Shown here: positions 4,986 to 36,626 of the stretch, one piece after another
How the letters are laid out: the number at the start of each line of letters is the position of its first letter
Numbering within the stretch: position 1 is the stretch's first letter
DNA from: Hymenobacter cellulosivorans
Lineage (GTDB): Bacteria > Bacteroidota > Bacteroidia > Cytophagales > Hymenobacteraceae
DNA: 64,000 nt
Assembly (NCBI RefSeq): GCF_022919135.1
Contig: NZ_CP095049.1
Location: forward strand, 1,178,001-1,242,000
Direction of reading: 5' to 3'
The notes under the pieces: model-generated
What the model saw: the letters and a program-made list of their open reading frames with translations, nothing else
Databases searched by the model: none
What the model was told of the DNA's origin: nothing
Made by a program: the position numbers and the translations under genes

Positions 4986-6854
4986 ATGTTTCAGCAAGAA
5001 GAGTACGATGTTATTGTAGTAGGTGCCGGCCATGCTGGTTGTGAAGCGGCTGCGGCCGCGGCCAACCTGGGCTCCAAGGTCCTGCTAGTCACGATGAACA
5101 TGAACACCATCGCCCAGATGTCGTGCAATCCGGCGATGGGCGGGGTGGCCAAGGGCCAGATCGTGCGCGAAGTGGATGCGCTGGGTGGGCAGTCAGGTAT
5201 CATCACCGACAAGACCATGATTCAGTTCCGGATGCTGAACCGCTCGAAAGGCCCCGCCATGTGGAGCCCCCGGGCGCAGAGTGACCGGATGCGCTTTGCC
5301 GAAGAGTGGCGCAATACGCTGGAGCAAACCCCGAACGTAGACTTCTGGCAGGAATCGGTGACGGGCATCGTGGTGGAAAACGACACAGTAGTCGGCGTCA
5401 AAACCCAGCTCGGCATCGAGTTCCGGGGCAAGTCGGTGGTGCTCACCAACGGCACGTTCCTCAACGGCCTGATCCACATCGGCGAGAAAAACTTCGGGGG
5501 TGGCCGCGCCGCCGAGAAGAAAAGCACCGGCATCACCGAGCAGCTCCTAGAGCTGGGCTTCGAAACGGGCCGCATGAAAACTGGCACCCCGCCCCGCGTG
5601 GACGGCCGCAGCCTGGACTACTCCAAAATGGAAGAGCAGGCCGGCGACGAGATGCCCAGCAAATTCAGCTACCTCGACACGCCCGCCCTGGTCAAGCAGC
5701 GCCCGTGCTACATCACCTACACCAACCAGGAAGTGCACGACATCCTGCGCGAGGGATTCGAGAAGTCGCCGATGTTTCAGGGCCGCATTAAGGGTCTGGG
5801 GCCGCGCTATTGCCCGAGCGTAGAGGACAAAATCAACCGCTTTGCTGACAAGGACCGGCACCAGATCTTTGTGGAGCCCGAAGGCAGCAGCACCGTGGAA
5901 ATGTACATCAACGGCTTCAGCAGCTCGTTGCCCGAAGACGTGCAGTACCGGGCCCTGCGCAAGATTGCCGGCTTCGAGAATGCCAAGATGTTCCGCCCCG
6001 GCTACGCTATTGAGTACGACTTCTTCCCGCCGACCCAGCTCAACCTGACCCTGGAAACCAAGCGCGTGAAAAACCTCTATTTCGCCGGCCAGATCAACGG
6101 CACGACGGGCTACGAGGAAGCCGCCTGCCAGGGTTTGATGGCCGGTATCAACGCCCACAACCGGGTGCACGGCAAGGAGCCTTTCATCCTGAAGCGGAGC
6201 GAGGCCTACATCGGTGTGCTCATCGACGACCTCGTCAACAAAGGCACCGACGAACCCTACCGCATGTTCACGAGCCGGGCCGAGTACCGCATTCTGCTGC
6301 GCCAGGACAACGCCGACCTGCGCCTCACGCCGCTGGGCCACGCCCTGGGTTTGGCCTCGGAGGAGCGCATGGAGCGGGTGCAGCGCAAGCAGCAGGAAAC
6401 GGCTGAAGTGGTGAAGCTGCTCAAGAACTTTGCCATCGAGCCGGCCGAAATTAACGGCTTGCTGGAGGAACTCAGCTCAGCCACGCTGCACGAGCGGACC
6501 CGGGCCGTAAACCTGCTCCGCCGGCCCAACATCGAGCTGGAGCACCTGACCCGCACCTTGCCGGCACTGACGCTGGCTTTGGGCCAGTACCAGCCCGACA
6601 GCCTAGAGCAGGCCGTTATTGCCATCAAGTACGAGTCCTATATCGAAAAGGAAAACCAGCAGGCGGCCCGCGTAGCCGAGCTGGAAAACTTTGTCATTCA
6701 GGGCCGCCTCGACTACAAGCAGATGCCGGCTCTTTCGCACGAGGCCCGGGAGAAGCTACTCAAGGTACAGCCCGAAACCCTGGGCCAGGCCGCCCGCATC
6801 AGCGGCGTGTCGCCGGCCGACGTTTCAGTGCTGATGGTGTACCTTGGCCGATAA
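4986..6854 (+). CDS. mnmG: tRNA uridine-5-carboxymethylaminomethyl modification enzyme MnmG (GidA)
   Basis: A 622-residue FAD-dependent enzyme that, with MnmE, makes the (c)mnm5 modification of wobble uridine 34 in several tRNAs. The N-terminus has the FAD-binding [12 protein letters not shown] motif (residues 11-22), followed by the family blocks [11 protein letters not shown] and [23 protein letters not shown] and [15 protein letters not shown] follow further on, and a helical C-terminal domain binds tRNA/MnmE. Length is normal. mnmE is not in the window. In E. coli and several other bacteria gidA sits beside oriC; here the DnaA-box-rich gap begins about 3.1 kb downstream, which fits that pattern. 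Confidence 0.97.
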
Positions 6855-7861: not shown

Positions 7862-8161
7862 ATGCGGGCACGGCGGCTGTTACTGGTCTTGGGTTGGCTG
7901 CTAATCAGCCGCGGGGCTGCAGCCGGTAGGGTAGGGGAGGGGCTAAGCCCTTTGCCACCAGCCACTTCAGTTTCAATCCAATTTACCTTGCCGCCCGACA
8001 CCGTGCGGAAGGCCCTGCGGCCCGACTCGGTGACTACCGCGCCGGCGCTGCTGTTGCCGCCCACCGACAAGCCCACGCGGGCCGTTAGTTTGCGCATTCT
8101 CGGGGCCATTGCTTTCCTTACCGTTACCACCCTTTTGCTCTATAATGTCCGTTCGCGCTAA
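7862..8161 (+). CDS. Small secreted or membrane protein of unknown function
   Basis: A 99-residue protein that I do not recognise. It has a cleavable-looking signal segment (RRLLLVLGWLLISRGAAA) and a Pro-rich middle. A second hydrophobic segment near the C-terminus (ILGAIAFLTVTTLLLYNV) is followed by RSR, so it is probably anchored with its middle outside the cytoplasm. It starts three bases after the methyltransferase stop and overlaps the following lipoprotein gene by 17 bases, which supports a real gene translated as part of a three-gene operon. No function can be proposed. Confidence 0.6.
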   Translation: MRARRLLLVLGWLLISRGAAAGRVGEGLSPLPPATSVSIQFTLPPDTVRKALRPDSVTTAPALLLPPTDKPTRAVSLRILGAIAFLTVTTLLLYNVRSR

Positions 8162-9782
8162 CCTGCTTGTTCTGCTTTCCGCCAGTGCCATCGTGAGCGG
8201 CTGTGCGGCCGTAAGCTCGCCGCAGGGCGGCCCCAAGGACGTGACGCCGCCCAAACTCATCGGTACTTCGCCGGCCAACGGCGCGCTCAACGTGCGCGAG
8301 CAAACCATCCGCCTGGATTTCTCGGAGTCGATTCAACTGAAGGACCTGACCAAAAACCTGATTGTAGCCCCCGTACTCGGCGACGATAACAAGTACCGGG
8401 TCAAGGAGGAGCGCACCTCTATTTCCCTGGTTTTCGACAAGCCCCTGCAGGCCAATACCACTTACACGTTCAACTTCGGGGCGGCCATTACCGACATCAC
8501 CGAAAACCTGCCGGCCCAGAATGTGCTGGTCACGTTCAGCACCGGTGCCCGTCTCGACTCGGGCTCGGTGCGCGGCTCCGTGACCCAGCTGCTGAGCGGA
8601 GCGGCGGGAGCCGAAGTGCCCGTGATGCTGTATCCTGAATCCGATACGATGACCATCCGGCGCGGCAAGCCCTACTACATGGTGCGTACCGATAAGGCCG
8701 GCGCGTTTGCACTGAATAATCTCAAGACGGGCCGCTACCGCCTCTACGCCCTGGCCGATAAAAACAACACGGGCCGCTACGAGGAGGGAGAGCAGATTGC
8801 CTACCTGCCCGAGCCGATTACGGTGCGCCCCGGCCTCGATTCGCTGCGGCTGGTGCTGGTGCGCCCCGATGCCCGCCGCCCCATCATATCTAGCCAGCAG
8901 GGCACGCCCAATCAGTTCAGAATTACCTTTAACGAAGGCCTGACCCAGGCCCGGCTGCTGCCGCTGGGCGCCGCCGCTACAGCCCCGGCTCCGGCCCCGC
9001 TAAATGAGGCGCTGCTGGTCGGAGAGAAGGGCCGGAGCGTGACGTTGTTCCGGACGGCAGCCCTGGCAGAAGGCCGCTACCTGCTGGCCACCGCCGACAG
9101 CGTGGGCAACACTGGGCAGGATACCATCAACGTCAAGTTTCCGGGTACTATTACGGGCACGGCCCGGCGGGCAGCCCAATACAACGTGGTGGGTACGCCT
9201 CGCGACGTGTACCGGCAGGGTCAGGTCAAGTTTCAGTTTGCGGAACCCCTGCGGCCGTTTACTAAGCAGCCCATCGGCACGCTGCTCGAAGACTCCACAG
9301 CCCGCAAACCCATTCGGGTGCCCCAGGAAGCCACGCTCAGCCCCGACCGTACCCAGCTCACGGTAAACCTTAATACCAAGGCCAAGAAGAGCATCAGCAT
9401 TATCCTGGACTCGACGGCCGTCACCACCATCACCGACCAGCGCCTGGGCCTGAAACCCGTGCGCCTGCTGGTTACGGATCAGTCGCCGGTGGGCAGCGTG
9501 GCGGGCACTATCCAAACCAAGTACCAACGCTTTCAGCTGCAATTGCTGGATAATACCAACCAGGTAGCCGCTGTGCTGGAGAGTCCCAAAAAGACCTTCC
9601 GCTTCGACAACCTGGCGCCCGGCAACTACCGCCTGCGCGTGCTCATCGACGCCGACAACAACGGCACCTGGCGCGGCGGCGACCCTAAGTTCATCGTGCC
9701 CGCCGAACCCGTATACTTAGCGCCTCAGCCGGTTCAGGTGCGGGCCAACTGGGAAGTAGAGGACCTCAAGCTGGCTTTCTGA
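8145..9782 (+). CDS. Ig-like (Big_5-type) domain lipoprotein
   Basis: I place the start at the ATG at 8145, because it gives a textbook lipoprotein signal: MSVRANLLVLLSASAIVSGC with C20 as the acylated cysteine. A TTG 36 bases upstream would add an unneeded leader. After the signal comes GGPKDVTPPKLIGTSPANG, the start of a bacterial Ig-like Big_5 domain that is very common in Bacteroidetes surface lipoproteins. Further repeats of beta-sandwich character follow, with phrases such as GRYRLYALADKNNTGRYEEG and GNYRLRVLIDADNNGTWRGG that resemble carboxypeptidase-regulatory or SdrD-like folds. The 545-residue protein is probably anchored in the outer membrane. Its role is unknown. Confidence 0.8.
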   Translation: MSVRANLLVLLSASAIVSGCAAVSSPQGGPKDVTPPKLIGTSPANGALNVREQTIRLDFSESIQLKDLTKNLIVAPVLGDDNKYRVKEERTSISLVFDKPLQANTTYTFNFGAAITDITENLPAQNVLVTFSTGARLDSGSVRGSVTQLLSGAAGAEVPVMLYPESDTMTIRRGKPYYMVRTDKAGAFALNNLKTGRYRLYALADKNNTGRYEEGEQIAYLPEPITVRPGLDSLRLVLVRPDARRPIISSQQGTPNQFRITFNEGLTQARLLPLGAAATAPAPAPLNEALLVGEKGRSVTLFRTAALAEGRYLLATADSVGNTGQDTINVKFPGTITGTARRAAQYNVVGTPRDVYRQGQVKFQFAEPLRPFTKQPIGTLLEDSTARKPIRVPQEATLSPDRTQLTVNLNTKAKKSISIILDSTAVTTITDQRLGLKPVRLLVTDQSPVGSVAGTIQTKYQRFQLQLLDNTNQVAAVLESPKKTFRFDNLAPGNYRLRVLIDADNNGTWRGGDPKFIVPAEPVYLAPQPVQVRANWEVEDLKLAF

Positions 9783-9844: not shown

Positions 9845-10009
9845 GTGCCCGCACCCCAGCCGGTACGCCTGGGCTGAGCAGGCGGGAGGCAGCACCCAGA
9901 TCTACCTCATCGTGTAGCTTCCTAGCACGCGCACGCCCGGCGCAGTGCAGGAGGCCAGCGGTTAGCAGCTTTTGCTATATAGTATTCGCCAAAAACCCTT
10001 CGGTTTGAG

Positions 10010-10514
10010 CTATCCACATTAGGGCCTTTCAGAATCAGGAAACTACGTGGTTTCCACATTTTTTTCCACAGCCCGGAAGCAGCTTTCCAGCCTAAGTGGG
10101 TTAATCTGTGGATAATGGTGGGGAAACATGGGGATAACCCGTGGAGAAGTTGCGGAAAAGTTTTTTTGCCCGTGCACAATGCAGCACAGAGGCCGATTTC
10201 CACATTGCCAACGTGGATAAGGGTGGATAACTATCCCCGGAAAATACCCGAATCCACACTGGGTAAAACCTGTGAATTGTGGATTCGTGGATAACGCTGT
10301 GAATTGTGAATAATATTTGCAAGTATCTTACATACTGACATTTACTATCCACAACCCCTGTTGATAGTTGGTGTATAAACCCAATCTTGTACACAAGTTA
10401 TCAGCTCTGTGTATAACTATATTTTCTTATCCACTTATGAACACCCCCAACGAGTGGAAACAAAAAGAAATCTTTTAAAAAATTTAATTCAAAAGTTATT
10501 AACCCTGTGGATAA
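10010..10514. other. Candidate chromosomal replication origin (DnaA-box cluster plus AT-rich segment)
   Basis: The 1.14-kb stretch 9783-10922 has no convincing gene but is full of DnaA-box-like 9-mers. Exact TTATNCACA/TGTGNATAA matches lie at 10107-10115, 10305-10313, 10408-10416 and 10506-10514. One-mismatch boxes start at 10010, 10062, 10129, 10212, 10222, 10286, 10345, 10370 and 10427. Most are in the TGTGGATAA orientation. The segment 10461-10502 is almost pure A/T and would serve as a DNA-unwinding element. A terminator at 9813 shields it on the left, and mnmG lies about 3 kb upstream. dnaA is not nearby, and genes on the left read towards the region, so the call rests on box density and context. 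10515-10922 shows nothing recognisable. Confidence 0.7.
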
Positions 10515-10922
10515 GCTTGGGACGCTTTCAAAAAATGAAAAGCCTGGGTTTAGGTCTGATTGGAAAAGCCAAGCCTAGACGAGCAGACGGTTCGAACAAG
10601 CGGTAAGGCAACTGAGGGTAAGCAAACCTACCGCGACCCGACGGGGCCTACCAATAAATTACACCAACCCGGCTTTGCGGCGGACCACTCCCCTCCTGCC
10701 GCTCCCCGCGTTGATTTTGCCACTCCTCCGGTTTGTTAGCGGCGCAGATTCTATTGCTAGGCGTGTAGTCCGGCGAAAACCGTTGATAAGTGATTGATGC
10801 TGATTGGGTAAGCTGGCAGAGTTATGCACTTTTCCACCCGTTTGGGTGTGGAAAACCACCGAAGCTGGTCCCGGGCACTGCTTTGCCCGTATACAGGCTC
10901 CCACCCGCCCCGCTCCTGCCCT

Positions 10923-11414
10923 ATGCCTTTCGATTATACGCTCGACTTTAAAGCCATCGACTTTCGCCGCCACCCCGAGCTGTACCGCGTGGGTAAGGGG
11001 GAGCAAGGCGTGTTGCTGGTTGAGCCCTATAAGTCGGAGATTCTGCCCTACTGGCGCTTTAAAAGCCCGGAGGTGGCCCGAGAGTCGTCGGAGCAGATCT
11101 ACCAGCTGTTTCTGGACTATCTGAAAGCCGACGACTTCGTGGGGGCCGATATGGCCCGTAAGTTTATTCAGATGGGCTTTACCCGGGCTCGGCGTTACGC
11201 CAACCACCGCGGCGGCAAGAAGTACGACGGCCCCGTGCCCGACGATAAGAAGGGGCAAAGTGGGGCCCACGGCCGCGCCGAGCTACCCCGCTCGCCTGAG
11301 GACCCTGAAAAGGCTGCCGCTGCCGCCATTTTCAAGGCCAAATGGGACCAAGCTAAGCTTCACCCCGACTACGTGCGGCAGAAGGCCGAATTTGAGGCCC
11401 GCTACGGCAAGTGA
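10923..11414 (+). CDS. DUF4385 family protein
   Basis: A 163-residue protein starting at the ATG at 10923 (MPFDYTLDFKAIDFR); an in-frame extension to 10824 is not conserved-looking. The blocks YRVGKGEQGVLLVEPYKSEI, LPYWRFKSPE, DDFVGADMARKFIQMG and RRYANHRGGKKYD are those of DUF4385, a small soluble family of unknown function found in bacteria and some phages and eukaryotes. It has no signal peptide or membrane segment. It sits between the two DnaA-box clusters, which says nothing certain about its role. Confidence 0.8.
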   Translation: MPFDYTLDFKAIDFRRHPELYRVGKGEQGVLLVEPYKSEILPYWRFKSPEVARESSEQIYQLFLDYLKADDFVGADMARKFIQMGFTRARRYANHRGGKKYDGPVPDDKKGQSGAHGRAELPRSPEDPEKAAAAAIFKAKWDQAKLHPDYVRQKAEFEARYGK

Positions 11415-11492: not shown

Positions 11493-11978
11493 ATGCAGAC
11501 CATCCAACCCCAACCCAACAGCACCGAAGAAAACGAAATCGTTCTGGGCACCGGCATGGGCCCGCTGAAGTTCGGCGCCACCCAGGACCAGGTCCGGGCC
11601 CTGATGGGCGAGCCGGAGGAAATCGAAGAGTCGGAGGAAGACGACGAGTTTGAGCACCAGGCTTGGAACTACCTGGAGGAAGGCTACTCCCTATACTTTG
11701 ACCGGGAAGATGATTACCGCCTAAGCTGCATCGAAACCGACCACCCGGGCCTGCGCATTTTCGGCCAACCGATTCATGGCAAGTCCGTAGAGGAAATCCA
11801 GGAGCTCATGCGCCAGAACGGCCTCGAGTCGACGGAGGTGGAGCGCATGGATACCGGCGAAACCCGCCTGTCCTACGAAAAGGAAATGATTGACCTTTAC
11901 TTTGATGAGGACCAGCTGCAGTTCGTCAACTTCGGCGTCTTTATCAGCGACGACCTAGAGGTGCAATGGCCCAGCTAG
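11493..11978 (+). CDS. Acidic cytoplasmic protein of unknown function
   Basis: A 161-residue protein that I do not recognise. It is strongly acidic (for example EEIEESEEDDEFEHQ near 43-57), with no signal peptide, membrane segment or cysteine cluster. The opening GMGPLKFGATQDQVRALMGEP is reminiscent of the KFGATREEV...LG-P motif of small domains found in SMI1/KNR4-associated or immunity-like proteins, but this is only a resemblance. It lies 78 bp after the DUF4385 gene and ends eight bases before an exact DnaA box. Codon use and composition look like the neighbours. Confidence 0.65.
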   Translation: MQTIQPQPNSTEENEIVLGTGMGPLKFGATQDQVRALMGEPEEIEESEEDDEFEHQAWNYLEEGYSLYFDREDDYRLSCIETDHPGLRIFGQPIHGKSVEEIQELMRQNGLESTEVERMDTGETRLSYEKEMIDLYFDEDQLQFVNFGVFISDDLEVQWPS

Positions 11979-11986
11979 AGCCAGAG

Positions 11987-12060
11987 TTATCCACAAAATT
12001 CGGGCTTTTTGGTGTTGATAAGTTGATAAGTGCTTAATAACCCGCCGTTTTAGTGGATAA
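11987..12060. other. Second small DnaA-box cluster
   Basis: An exact TTATCCACA at 11987-11995, a one-mismatch AGTGGATAA at 12052-12060, and several GTTGATAAG repeats lie in between. The spacer is visibly AT-richer than the surrounding genes. It may be a second half of a bipartite origin about 1.5 kb from the main cluster. Confidence 0.5.
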
Positions 12061-34201: not shown

Positions 34202-34238
34202 CAAATATGTTCCACGTGAAACATATTTGTCATTTAGG
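34193..34238. other. parS centromere site inside a 46-bp palindrome
   Basis: TGTTCCACGTGAAACA at 34208-34223 fits the ParB-binding parS consensus TGTTNCACGTGAAACA exactly. It is embedded in a longer palindrome: 34193-34211 and 34220-34238 are perfectly complementary (19 bases each), and only one of the four central pairs is mismatched. The flanking arms are AT-rich. Known parS sites bind Spo0J/ParB near chromosome origins. parA and parB are not in the window. The palindrome could also work as a terminator stem for the HTH gene. Confidence 0.9.
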
Positions 34239-35516: not shown

Positions 35517-36626
35517 CTAAAGGGCCGTTACGTGGCCACTTTCAACCCGAAATCGGCTGATCTGTTCCGAAAGGTTCGCCAAGGCGCGGTCAGTACGCTC
35601 CAGATGAGTATCGGTCAAAAAAACCTGACCGAAGGTCTGATCGGCGACGAGTTGCAGCAAGCGAGTAATGCGCTTCTCGTCCAGGCGGTCGAAGATGTCG
35701 TCAAGGAGTAGAATGGGCTTGTGCTGCTTACGGGTGGCAGCTATTTCAAACTGTGCCAGCTTGAGGGCAATAGCATACGATTTCTGCTGGCCCTGGGAGC
35801 CATAGTTCTTTACTGATACCCCATCCATCAAAAACACGAAGTCGTCTTTGTGTGGGCCTACCGTGGTGCGTTGCAACGCTAAATCTTTACGCTCGAAGGT
35901 GCGCAGTAAGTGTAGGAAGTCGGCATCGGGTAACTGGCTCTTGTACTCCAGTGTGACTTCCTCCCGGCTGTCGGCGAGCTGCTGGTAGTGGCGCTGAAAG
36001 ATAGGAGTGAAGTCGGCTAGGAACTGCTGGCGCAGCTGCACCAATTGGGTGCCTACAGGCGCTAGCTGTTCATCTAATACTAGTAGGTAGTCGCGGTCGT
36101 AGCCCTGGCGGTCGGCGGCTTGCTTAAGCACGGCATTGCGTTGGCGCAGGAGGTGATTATACTGAATGAGCAACTCCAGGTACTCGTGGTTGAGCTGGGA
36201 AATCAGGCTGTCGAAATAACGGCGGCGCTCCTCACTGCCCTGCCGAATCAGGTCAGTATCGTAGGGCGAGATAAGCACCACTGGGAAGCGGCCGATGTGG
36301 TCGGAGATGCGCTCGTAGGCCTGCTTGTTGTGGGTCACGGCTTTCTTCTGCCCGGCTCGCAGACTACACTGAATGGTTTCGCGCACGTCGTCGGGCGGGG
36401 TGCAGAACCGGCCTTTCACCACGAAGAACTCCTCGCCTTGTTTTATGCTCTGGGCATCCGAACTGGTGAAGGCGCTTTTAGTCAACGCCAAATAGTGGAT
36501 GGCATCGAGCAGGTTGGTCTTCCCACTGCCGTTATCTCCTATAAAACAGTTGATATGGGGCGAGAGCTGAAGCGTCGCCTCATCGTAGTTTTTGAAGAAC
36601 AGCAGATGTAGAGTTTCAAGAATCAT
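35517..36626 (-). CDS. recF: DNA replication/repair protein RecF
   Basis: A 369-residue SMC-like ATPase of recombinational repair at gaps and stalled forks. Walker A is FIGDNGSGKTNLLDAIHYL (residues 28-46). The family block SPYDTDLIRQGSEERRRYFD follows, then an ABC-type signature in NYGSQGQQKSYAIALKLAQ, and Walker B reads ILLLDDIFDRLDEKR. Length is normal. It heads a minus-strand operon with the DciA-like gene and is divergent from pdhA, with only 65 bp between the two starts. In many bacteria recF lies near the chromosome origin. Confidence 0.96.
   Translation of the reverse strand: MILETLHLLFFKNYDEATLQLSPHINCFIGDNGSGKTNLLDAIHYLALTKSAFTSSDAQSIKQGEEFFVVKGRFCTPPDDVRETIQCSLRAGQKKAVTHNKQAYERISDHIGRFPVVLISPYDTDLIRQGSEERRRYFDSLISQLNHEYLELLIQYNHLLRQRNAVLKQAADRQGYDRDYLLVLDEQLAPVGTQLVQLRQQFLADFTPIFQRHYQQLADSREEVTLEYKSQLPDADFLHLLRTFERKDLALQRTTVGPHKDDFVFLMDGVSVKNYGSQGQQKSYAIALKLAQFEIAATRKQHKPILLLDDIFDRLDEKRITRLLQLVADQTFGQVFLTDTHLERTDRALANLSEQISRFRVESGHVTAL

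Follow-up and report, generated by a model that had tools for sequence, protein, structure and literature searches.

A probable chromosomal replication origin in Hymenobacter, close to mnmG and parS and distant from dnaA

The locus, its DnaA boxes and its AT-rich segment

We analysed a window of 64,000 nucleotides, corresponding to positions 1,178,001 to 1,242,000 of the one-contig genome (6,101,666 bases) of Hymenobacter cellulosivorans; all coordinates without further qualification refer to this window. The element under study occupies 10010-10514 (no strand assigned), at approximately 1.188 Mb of the chromosome, and was characterised by box counts, BLAST, and an alignment of 30 sequences. 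To its left lies a gene for a protein with a Big_5 Ig-like domain (8109-9782, plus strand), and to its right a gene for a DUF4385 protein (10923-11414, plus strand), both assigned from their open reading frames and Pfam. The former reads towards the element, in agreement with the original prediction that the left-hand genes are directed at the region, and the latter reads away from it. The DUF4385 reading frame is open from 10824, but the ATG at 10923 is its likely start, with the Pfam run beginning at 10926. This places the box cluster between the end of the Ig-like gene at 9782 and the DUF4385 start near 10923. The mnmG (gidA) gene, a classic neighbour of oriC, was identified by its reading frame and domain match at 4986-6854 (plus strand), approximately 3.2 kb from the element and thus close to the 3 kb originally given.

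Within this gene-free DNA, the element contains 15 sites with at most one mismatch to the DnaA box TTATNCACA, distributed over both strands and across the 500 bp. Four of these are exact, at the positions first reported (10107, 10305, 10408, and 10506), and 11 carry one mismatch, so that the earlier figure of nine was an undercount. The density is well above chance: in 1,000 first-order Markov shuffles of the region, the mean number of sites with at most one mismatch is 0.77 (maximum 4), and that of exact sites is 0.03 (maximum 2). Outside the element, the highest count per 500 bp in the window is 3.

The exact boxes are all on the minus strand and comprise TTATCCACA at 10107-10115, with a conserved GTGGATAA core, TTATNCACA in the form TTATTCACA at 10305-10313, TTATNCACA in the form TTATACACA at 10408-10416, and a conserved TTATCCACA at 10506-10514. 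Boxes with one mismatch include a conserved pair starting at 10212 and 10222 (10212-10230, minus strand), a conserved box at 10286-10294 (minus strand), and CTATCCACA at 10345-10353 (plus strand). A further conserved box, TTATCCACT at 10427-10435 on the plus strand, faces the box at 10506. All were located by the box scan and, apart from those at 10305 and 10408, were also assessed in the alignment. Another exact TTATCCACA box is present at 11987-11995, 1.5 kb to the right of the element, between a small gene ending at 11978 and a gene for a PHO4 phosphate transporter.

The facing boxes at 10427 and 10506 lie to the left and right of an AT-rich segment (10461-10502, no strand assigned), which we propose as the DNA-unwinding element on the basis of its composition. 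The segment had been described as almost pure AT. It is indeed the site of the most AT-rich 42-mer of the window, which starts at 10462, but with 37 A+T out of 42 (88%) the wording was slightly strong. The same segment is 80% to 93% A+T in all 30 aligned genus sequences, the window included, and by composition it would qualify as an AT-rich unwinding element beside boxes. DnaA-trios consist of repeated [TA]A[GA] steps next to a box and are absent from some origins. Searching by this rule, we saw no clean trio adjoining any box of the window's element; the sole run of three such steps, at 10462, lacks a neighbouring box in the expected orientation. The apparent absence of a canonical trio next to a box is the one anatomical oddity of the element.

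Conservation in the genus and in the order

With window positions 9900-10920 as the BLAST query, 34 of the 36 other genomes of the genus gave a match to the element, whereas 22 genomes from other genera of the order gave none. The match spans approximately 10089-10107 to 10497-10558 in 23 of the 34 genomes. In 8 others (G005, G012, G019, G020, G022, G024, G025, and G036), the main match covers the right-hand part only, and in G019, G024, and G025 it comprises just 73 to 74 bases, from the box at 10427 into the AT-rich segment. The two genomes of the genus missed by BLAST are G011 and G029, the second of which has a diverged copy with 8 sites in 500 bp and a similar AT-rich tail, 23 to 24 kb from its parS. 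The alignment was built from the window and 29 of the 34 BLAST-positive genomes (G022, G024, G025, G028, and G036 were left out). Its well-conserved columns include the boxes at 10107, 10212, 10222, 10286, 10427, and 10506, much of the AT-rich segment, and a AAGTTTTTTTG block at approximately 10158-10168, which is a conserved T run within the left box array.

The DUF4385 gene starts approximately 400 bp to the right of the element and is directed away from it, which would be compatible with a DnaA-regulated promoter, or with a conserved cis-regulatory or RNA element of that gene. However, the boxes extend over 500 bp and both strands, and in the 34 genomes the main match found by BLAST stops at 10491-10558, well before the gene. 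Such a role would also leave the parS linkage and the skew described below unexplained, and we consider it extremely improbable.

Relatives of the left-neighbour protein in named genomes have up to 80% identity; eight of the nine loci are from Hymenobacter and the ninth is from Solirubrum, which by itself places the host in Hymenobacter or very near that genus. Directly after the Ig-like gene, a cluster of 4 to 15 sites per 500 bp is present in seven of the nine. The other two (L158 and L163) have zero sites within the fetched flank, and there the element seems to sit 100 to 200 bp beyond it, as far as can be inferred.

Beyond the genus, mnmG was located in 54 genomes from other genera of the order, and from these we examined 20 mnmG regions representing 17 families; two of these regions are shorter than the others, one because of a contig end. 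Eight regions (6 of the 17 families) have 5 to 20 sites in 500 bp, versus at most 3 in 20 shuffles of each. In seven of these eight, the cluster is located approximately 3 to 5 kb after the mnmG start, as in the window. These clusters indicate that a location near mnmG is probably an old feature within Cytophagales, though it is absent from part of the sample: in 12 of the 20 regions no cluster of at least 5 sites was found near mnmG, and here the boxes may have other sequences or the origins may have moved. Outside the order, 18 of 19 regions likewise have no cluster of at least 5 sites near mnmG. The only one reaching that number is G099, with 6 sites in 500 bp, while G109 has 4 compared to a shuffle maximum of 2. 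Given this single case among 19, we do not claim the mnmG linkage for the phylum.

Chromosomal context: parS, dnaA, gene direction, and skew

A parS site had been predicted 24 kb away, and a pattern search identified a perfect match, TGTTCCACGTGAAACA, at 34208-34223 (no strand assigned), 23.7 kb from the element and the only perfect match in the genome. A single perfect TGTTNCACGTGNAACA site is present in every one of the 12 genomes searched, four of which carry one further site with one mismatch; as a control, the pattern read backwards yields 0 to 3 hits per genome when up to one mismatch is allowed. In all 12 genomes the perfect parS is located 21 to 28 kb from the element, always on the right side in element orientation (for G029, the distance was taken from its diverged cluster). 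At 1.3 kb beyond parS, on the minus strand, 35517-36626 encodes an SMC_N/RecF-type ATPase according to Pfam, probably recF. The gene for ParB does not adjoin parS but is found at C1:5596446-5596964 (5.60 Mb). It is less than 0.2 Mb from dnaA (C1:5791689-5793143), so that parB and dnaA are near each other and far from parS and oriC, respectively.

The only TIGR00362 match of the genome is this dnaA gene, which confirms that dnaA is absent from the window; it is 1.5 Mb from the element. The original prediction had named the surroundings of dnaA as the place where a stronger box cluster would speak against the locus. We found none: in the 20 kb around dnaA, there is at most 1 site with up to one mismatch per 500 bp. 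The element itself has a single BLAST place in its own 6.10-Mb genome. Among 40 stretches of 20 kb sampled from the genome, no 500 bp holds more than 3 sites; this sampling covered approximately 14% of the genome, and the uniqueness of the cluster is to be read as sampled. A pair of exact boxes at 995,432-995,471 was considered as a rival cluster and rejected, having just 3 sites in 500 bp. Genome-wide, there are 15 exact copies of TTATCCACA and 24 of its letters in reverse order, which means that the box shows no overall enrichment. Two of the 15 copies are inside the element and one is the box 1.5 kb to its right. For one-mismatch sites, about 100 were listed among approximately 770 in the genome.

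A dense set of boxes, several of them weak, would by itself also fit a datA-like locus for DnaA titration or inactivation, which would bind DnaA and not fire, the true origin being elsewhere. This possibility is nevertheless improbable. The element has a conserved AT-rich segment framed by boxes, it is close to the single perfect parS and, in two of three genomes, to the skew switch (see below), and neither the surroundings of dnaA nor the sampled stretches (approximately 14% of the genome) contain a competing cluster.

We next consider the direction of genes around the element. In 10 genomes taken together, 21 of the 24 16S genes are directed away from it; the three that read towards it are found one each in G020, G005, and G032. 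When dnaA is taken as the origin, 16S genes read away in 17 of 27 cases (11 genomes), and in 15 of the same 24. The count for the element leaves aside G029 and G007, the latter having no 16S match, and uses rounded values for some chromosome lengths. In individual genomes, 15% to 50% of random origins match the element on 16S direction, so that only the sum is telling and no single genome is decisive. In the genome of the window we found one 16S gene (C1:1025493-1027007), while nine of 11 relatives have two or three (G003 has one and G007 none); the single copy in a genome of 6.1 Mb is possibly a collapsed assembly repeat.

By hand reading, dnaA itself is directed away from the element in all 12 genomes, although its position is almost opposite the element in G020 and G005 and the contig of G007 is not closed. 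In G010, dnaA (C1:2525358-2526812) is approximately 1 Mb to the right of the element; it is also on the right in G007 and on the left in the other ten. The switched side and opposite relative strand in G010 are what one would expect if an inversion had occurred symmetrically around the origin.

Cumulative GC skew had been suggested as a check. Uncorrected GC skew of the sampled stretches is uninformative because it follows the gene strand: for third-position GC skew in the genome of the window, the gene-strand term (-0.123) is approximately seven times the replication term (+0.018). The results of free two-breakpoint fits were scattered and gave no preference to the element; a gene-strand start of 0.8 to 0.85 Mb was among the best listed, and averaged GC3 gave a start of 2.65 to 2.75 Mb. 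Nor does gene-strand bias, taken by itself, point to the element in its own genome, where half of the trial origins equal it. In place of these fits we used a regression that includes gene strand as a term and sets the terminus opposite the origin, and then applied the same model to third-position keto skew. The tested position had been fixed beforehand by the finding of the element, while the model was chosen after the earlier fits had not favoured it; p values are from one-sided permutations of stretches for the position given beforehand.

With this correction, the keto skew of the window's own genome (43 stretches, approximately 14% of the genome) has its optimum at 1.25 Mb, compared to 1.19 Mb for the element (p = 0.0046). 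None of the outcomes that the original prediction had named as refuting it was observed. In G012 (20 stretches), the optimum is at 3.30 Mb, with a plateau that is equal at the element at 3.46 Mb (p = 0.0022). The signal in G032 (20 stretches) is weaker, with an optimum 0.6 Mb from the element (p = 0.068) and AT3 alone pointing approximately 1 Mb away. The fraction of trial origins scoring at least as well as the element is 9% in its own genome, 5% in G012, and 22% in G032. Two of the three genomes thus place the switch of strand asymmetry no more than 0.16 Mb from the element in these samples, and the signal of the third is weak.

These data also bear on an origin at dnaA, as in Bacillus. This is the commonest place: according to one survey, 342 of 568 chromosomes, and no more, have oriC next to dnaA and close to the skew switch, with gidA as another listed neighbour (PMC2275245). 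In addition, dnaA as the origin fits all three 16S genes of G032, and in G006 and G010 it fits the 16S genes as well as the element does. On the other hand, the 20 kb around dnaA contain no box cluster, the distance between dnaA and the conserved element varies from 0.9 to 2.1 Mb in 10 genomes, and in each of the three genomes the corrected keto coefficient at dnaA falls below that of the element. We therefore give an origin at dnaA almost no credence.

Function of the element and comparison with known origins

The box cluster, its conservation, the composition of the AT-rich segment, the parS linkage, the orientation of rRNA genes, and the corrected skew of the samples were all computed here. 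The conservation across the genus, the constant linkage to parS, the 16S genes that mostly read away, and the corrected skew support the reading of the locus put forward in the original prediction: 10010-10514 very probably constitutes oriC, the origin of chromosome replication in this Hymenobacter, and we infer that it fires in cells. The mechanism is most likely the standard one of DnaA filling, melting, and helicase loading. DnaA, whose gene is 1.5 Mb from the element, would occupy the strong and weak boxes of the array. The array, together with the boxes at 10427 (left) and 10506 (right) flanking the AT-rich segment, would then promote melting of 10461-10502, allowing the replicative helicase to be loaded for two forks. 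The parS site, 24 kb off, would be captured by ParB, leading to early segregation of the new origins.

A more far-reaching proposal, which we regard as rather unlikely, is that Cytophagales keep an ancestral mnmG-oriC-parS-(recF) neighbourhood from which dnaA and parB have moved by more than 1 Mb, at least in the genome of the window, and that the AT-rich segment of Hymenobacter, with its two inward-facing conserved boxes, may melt from both sides without a DnaA-trio, as a variant unwinding module.

Cytophaga hutchinsonii belongs to the same order as Hymenobacter, and Xu et al. (2012; cited in PMC5891637) reportedly obtained oriC plasmids that are replicative in that host. Elsewhere, oriC is located between gidA and mioC in Escherichia coli and Yersinia pestis and next to gidA in Bradyrhizobiaceae (PMC2275245, PMC10225481). 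Such gidA/mnmG-type origins, as described there, resemble the element in that their DnaA boxes cluster in the vicinity of mnmG and not of dnaA. In Hymenobacter, by contrast, mnmG is 3.2 kb off with genes in between, the flanking genes encode the Big_5 and DUF4385 proteins, and the box set and spacing are its own. In Elizabethkingia meningoseptica, also a member of the Bacteroidota, a predicted oriC of 649 bp with DnaA boxes and AT-rich segments is described at approximately 0.74 Mb and dnaA at 2.61 Mb, so that oriC is likewise far from dnaA (approximately 1.9 Mb; PMC8994065). It differs in that only three boxes are reported there and in belonging to another lineage of the phylum, and it is likewise a prediction only (PMC8994065).

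Among the papers listed in our literature searches, none deals with a Hymenobacter oriC; DoriC may contain Hymenobacter entries. Since origins away from dnaA are common and a precedent from the Bacteroidota has been published, the arrangement is of a known type, and the Hymenobacter element is a new, well-supported instance of a dnaA-distant oriC. For the genus, it provides a precise, conserved oriC together with parS where uncorrected GC skew is unreliable and can mislead. This may be of use for orienting genomes, interpreting growth-rate estimates based on coverage, and building Hymenobacter oriC plasmids.
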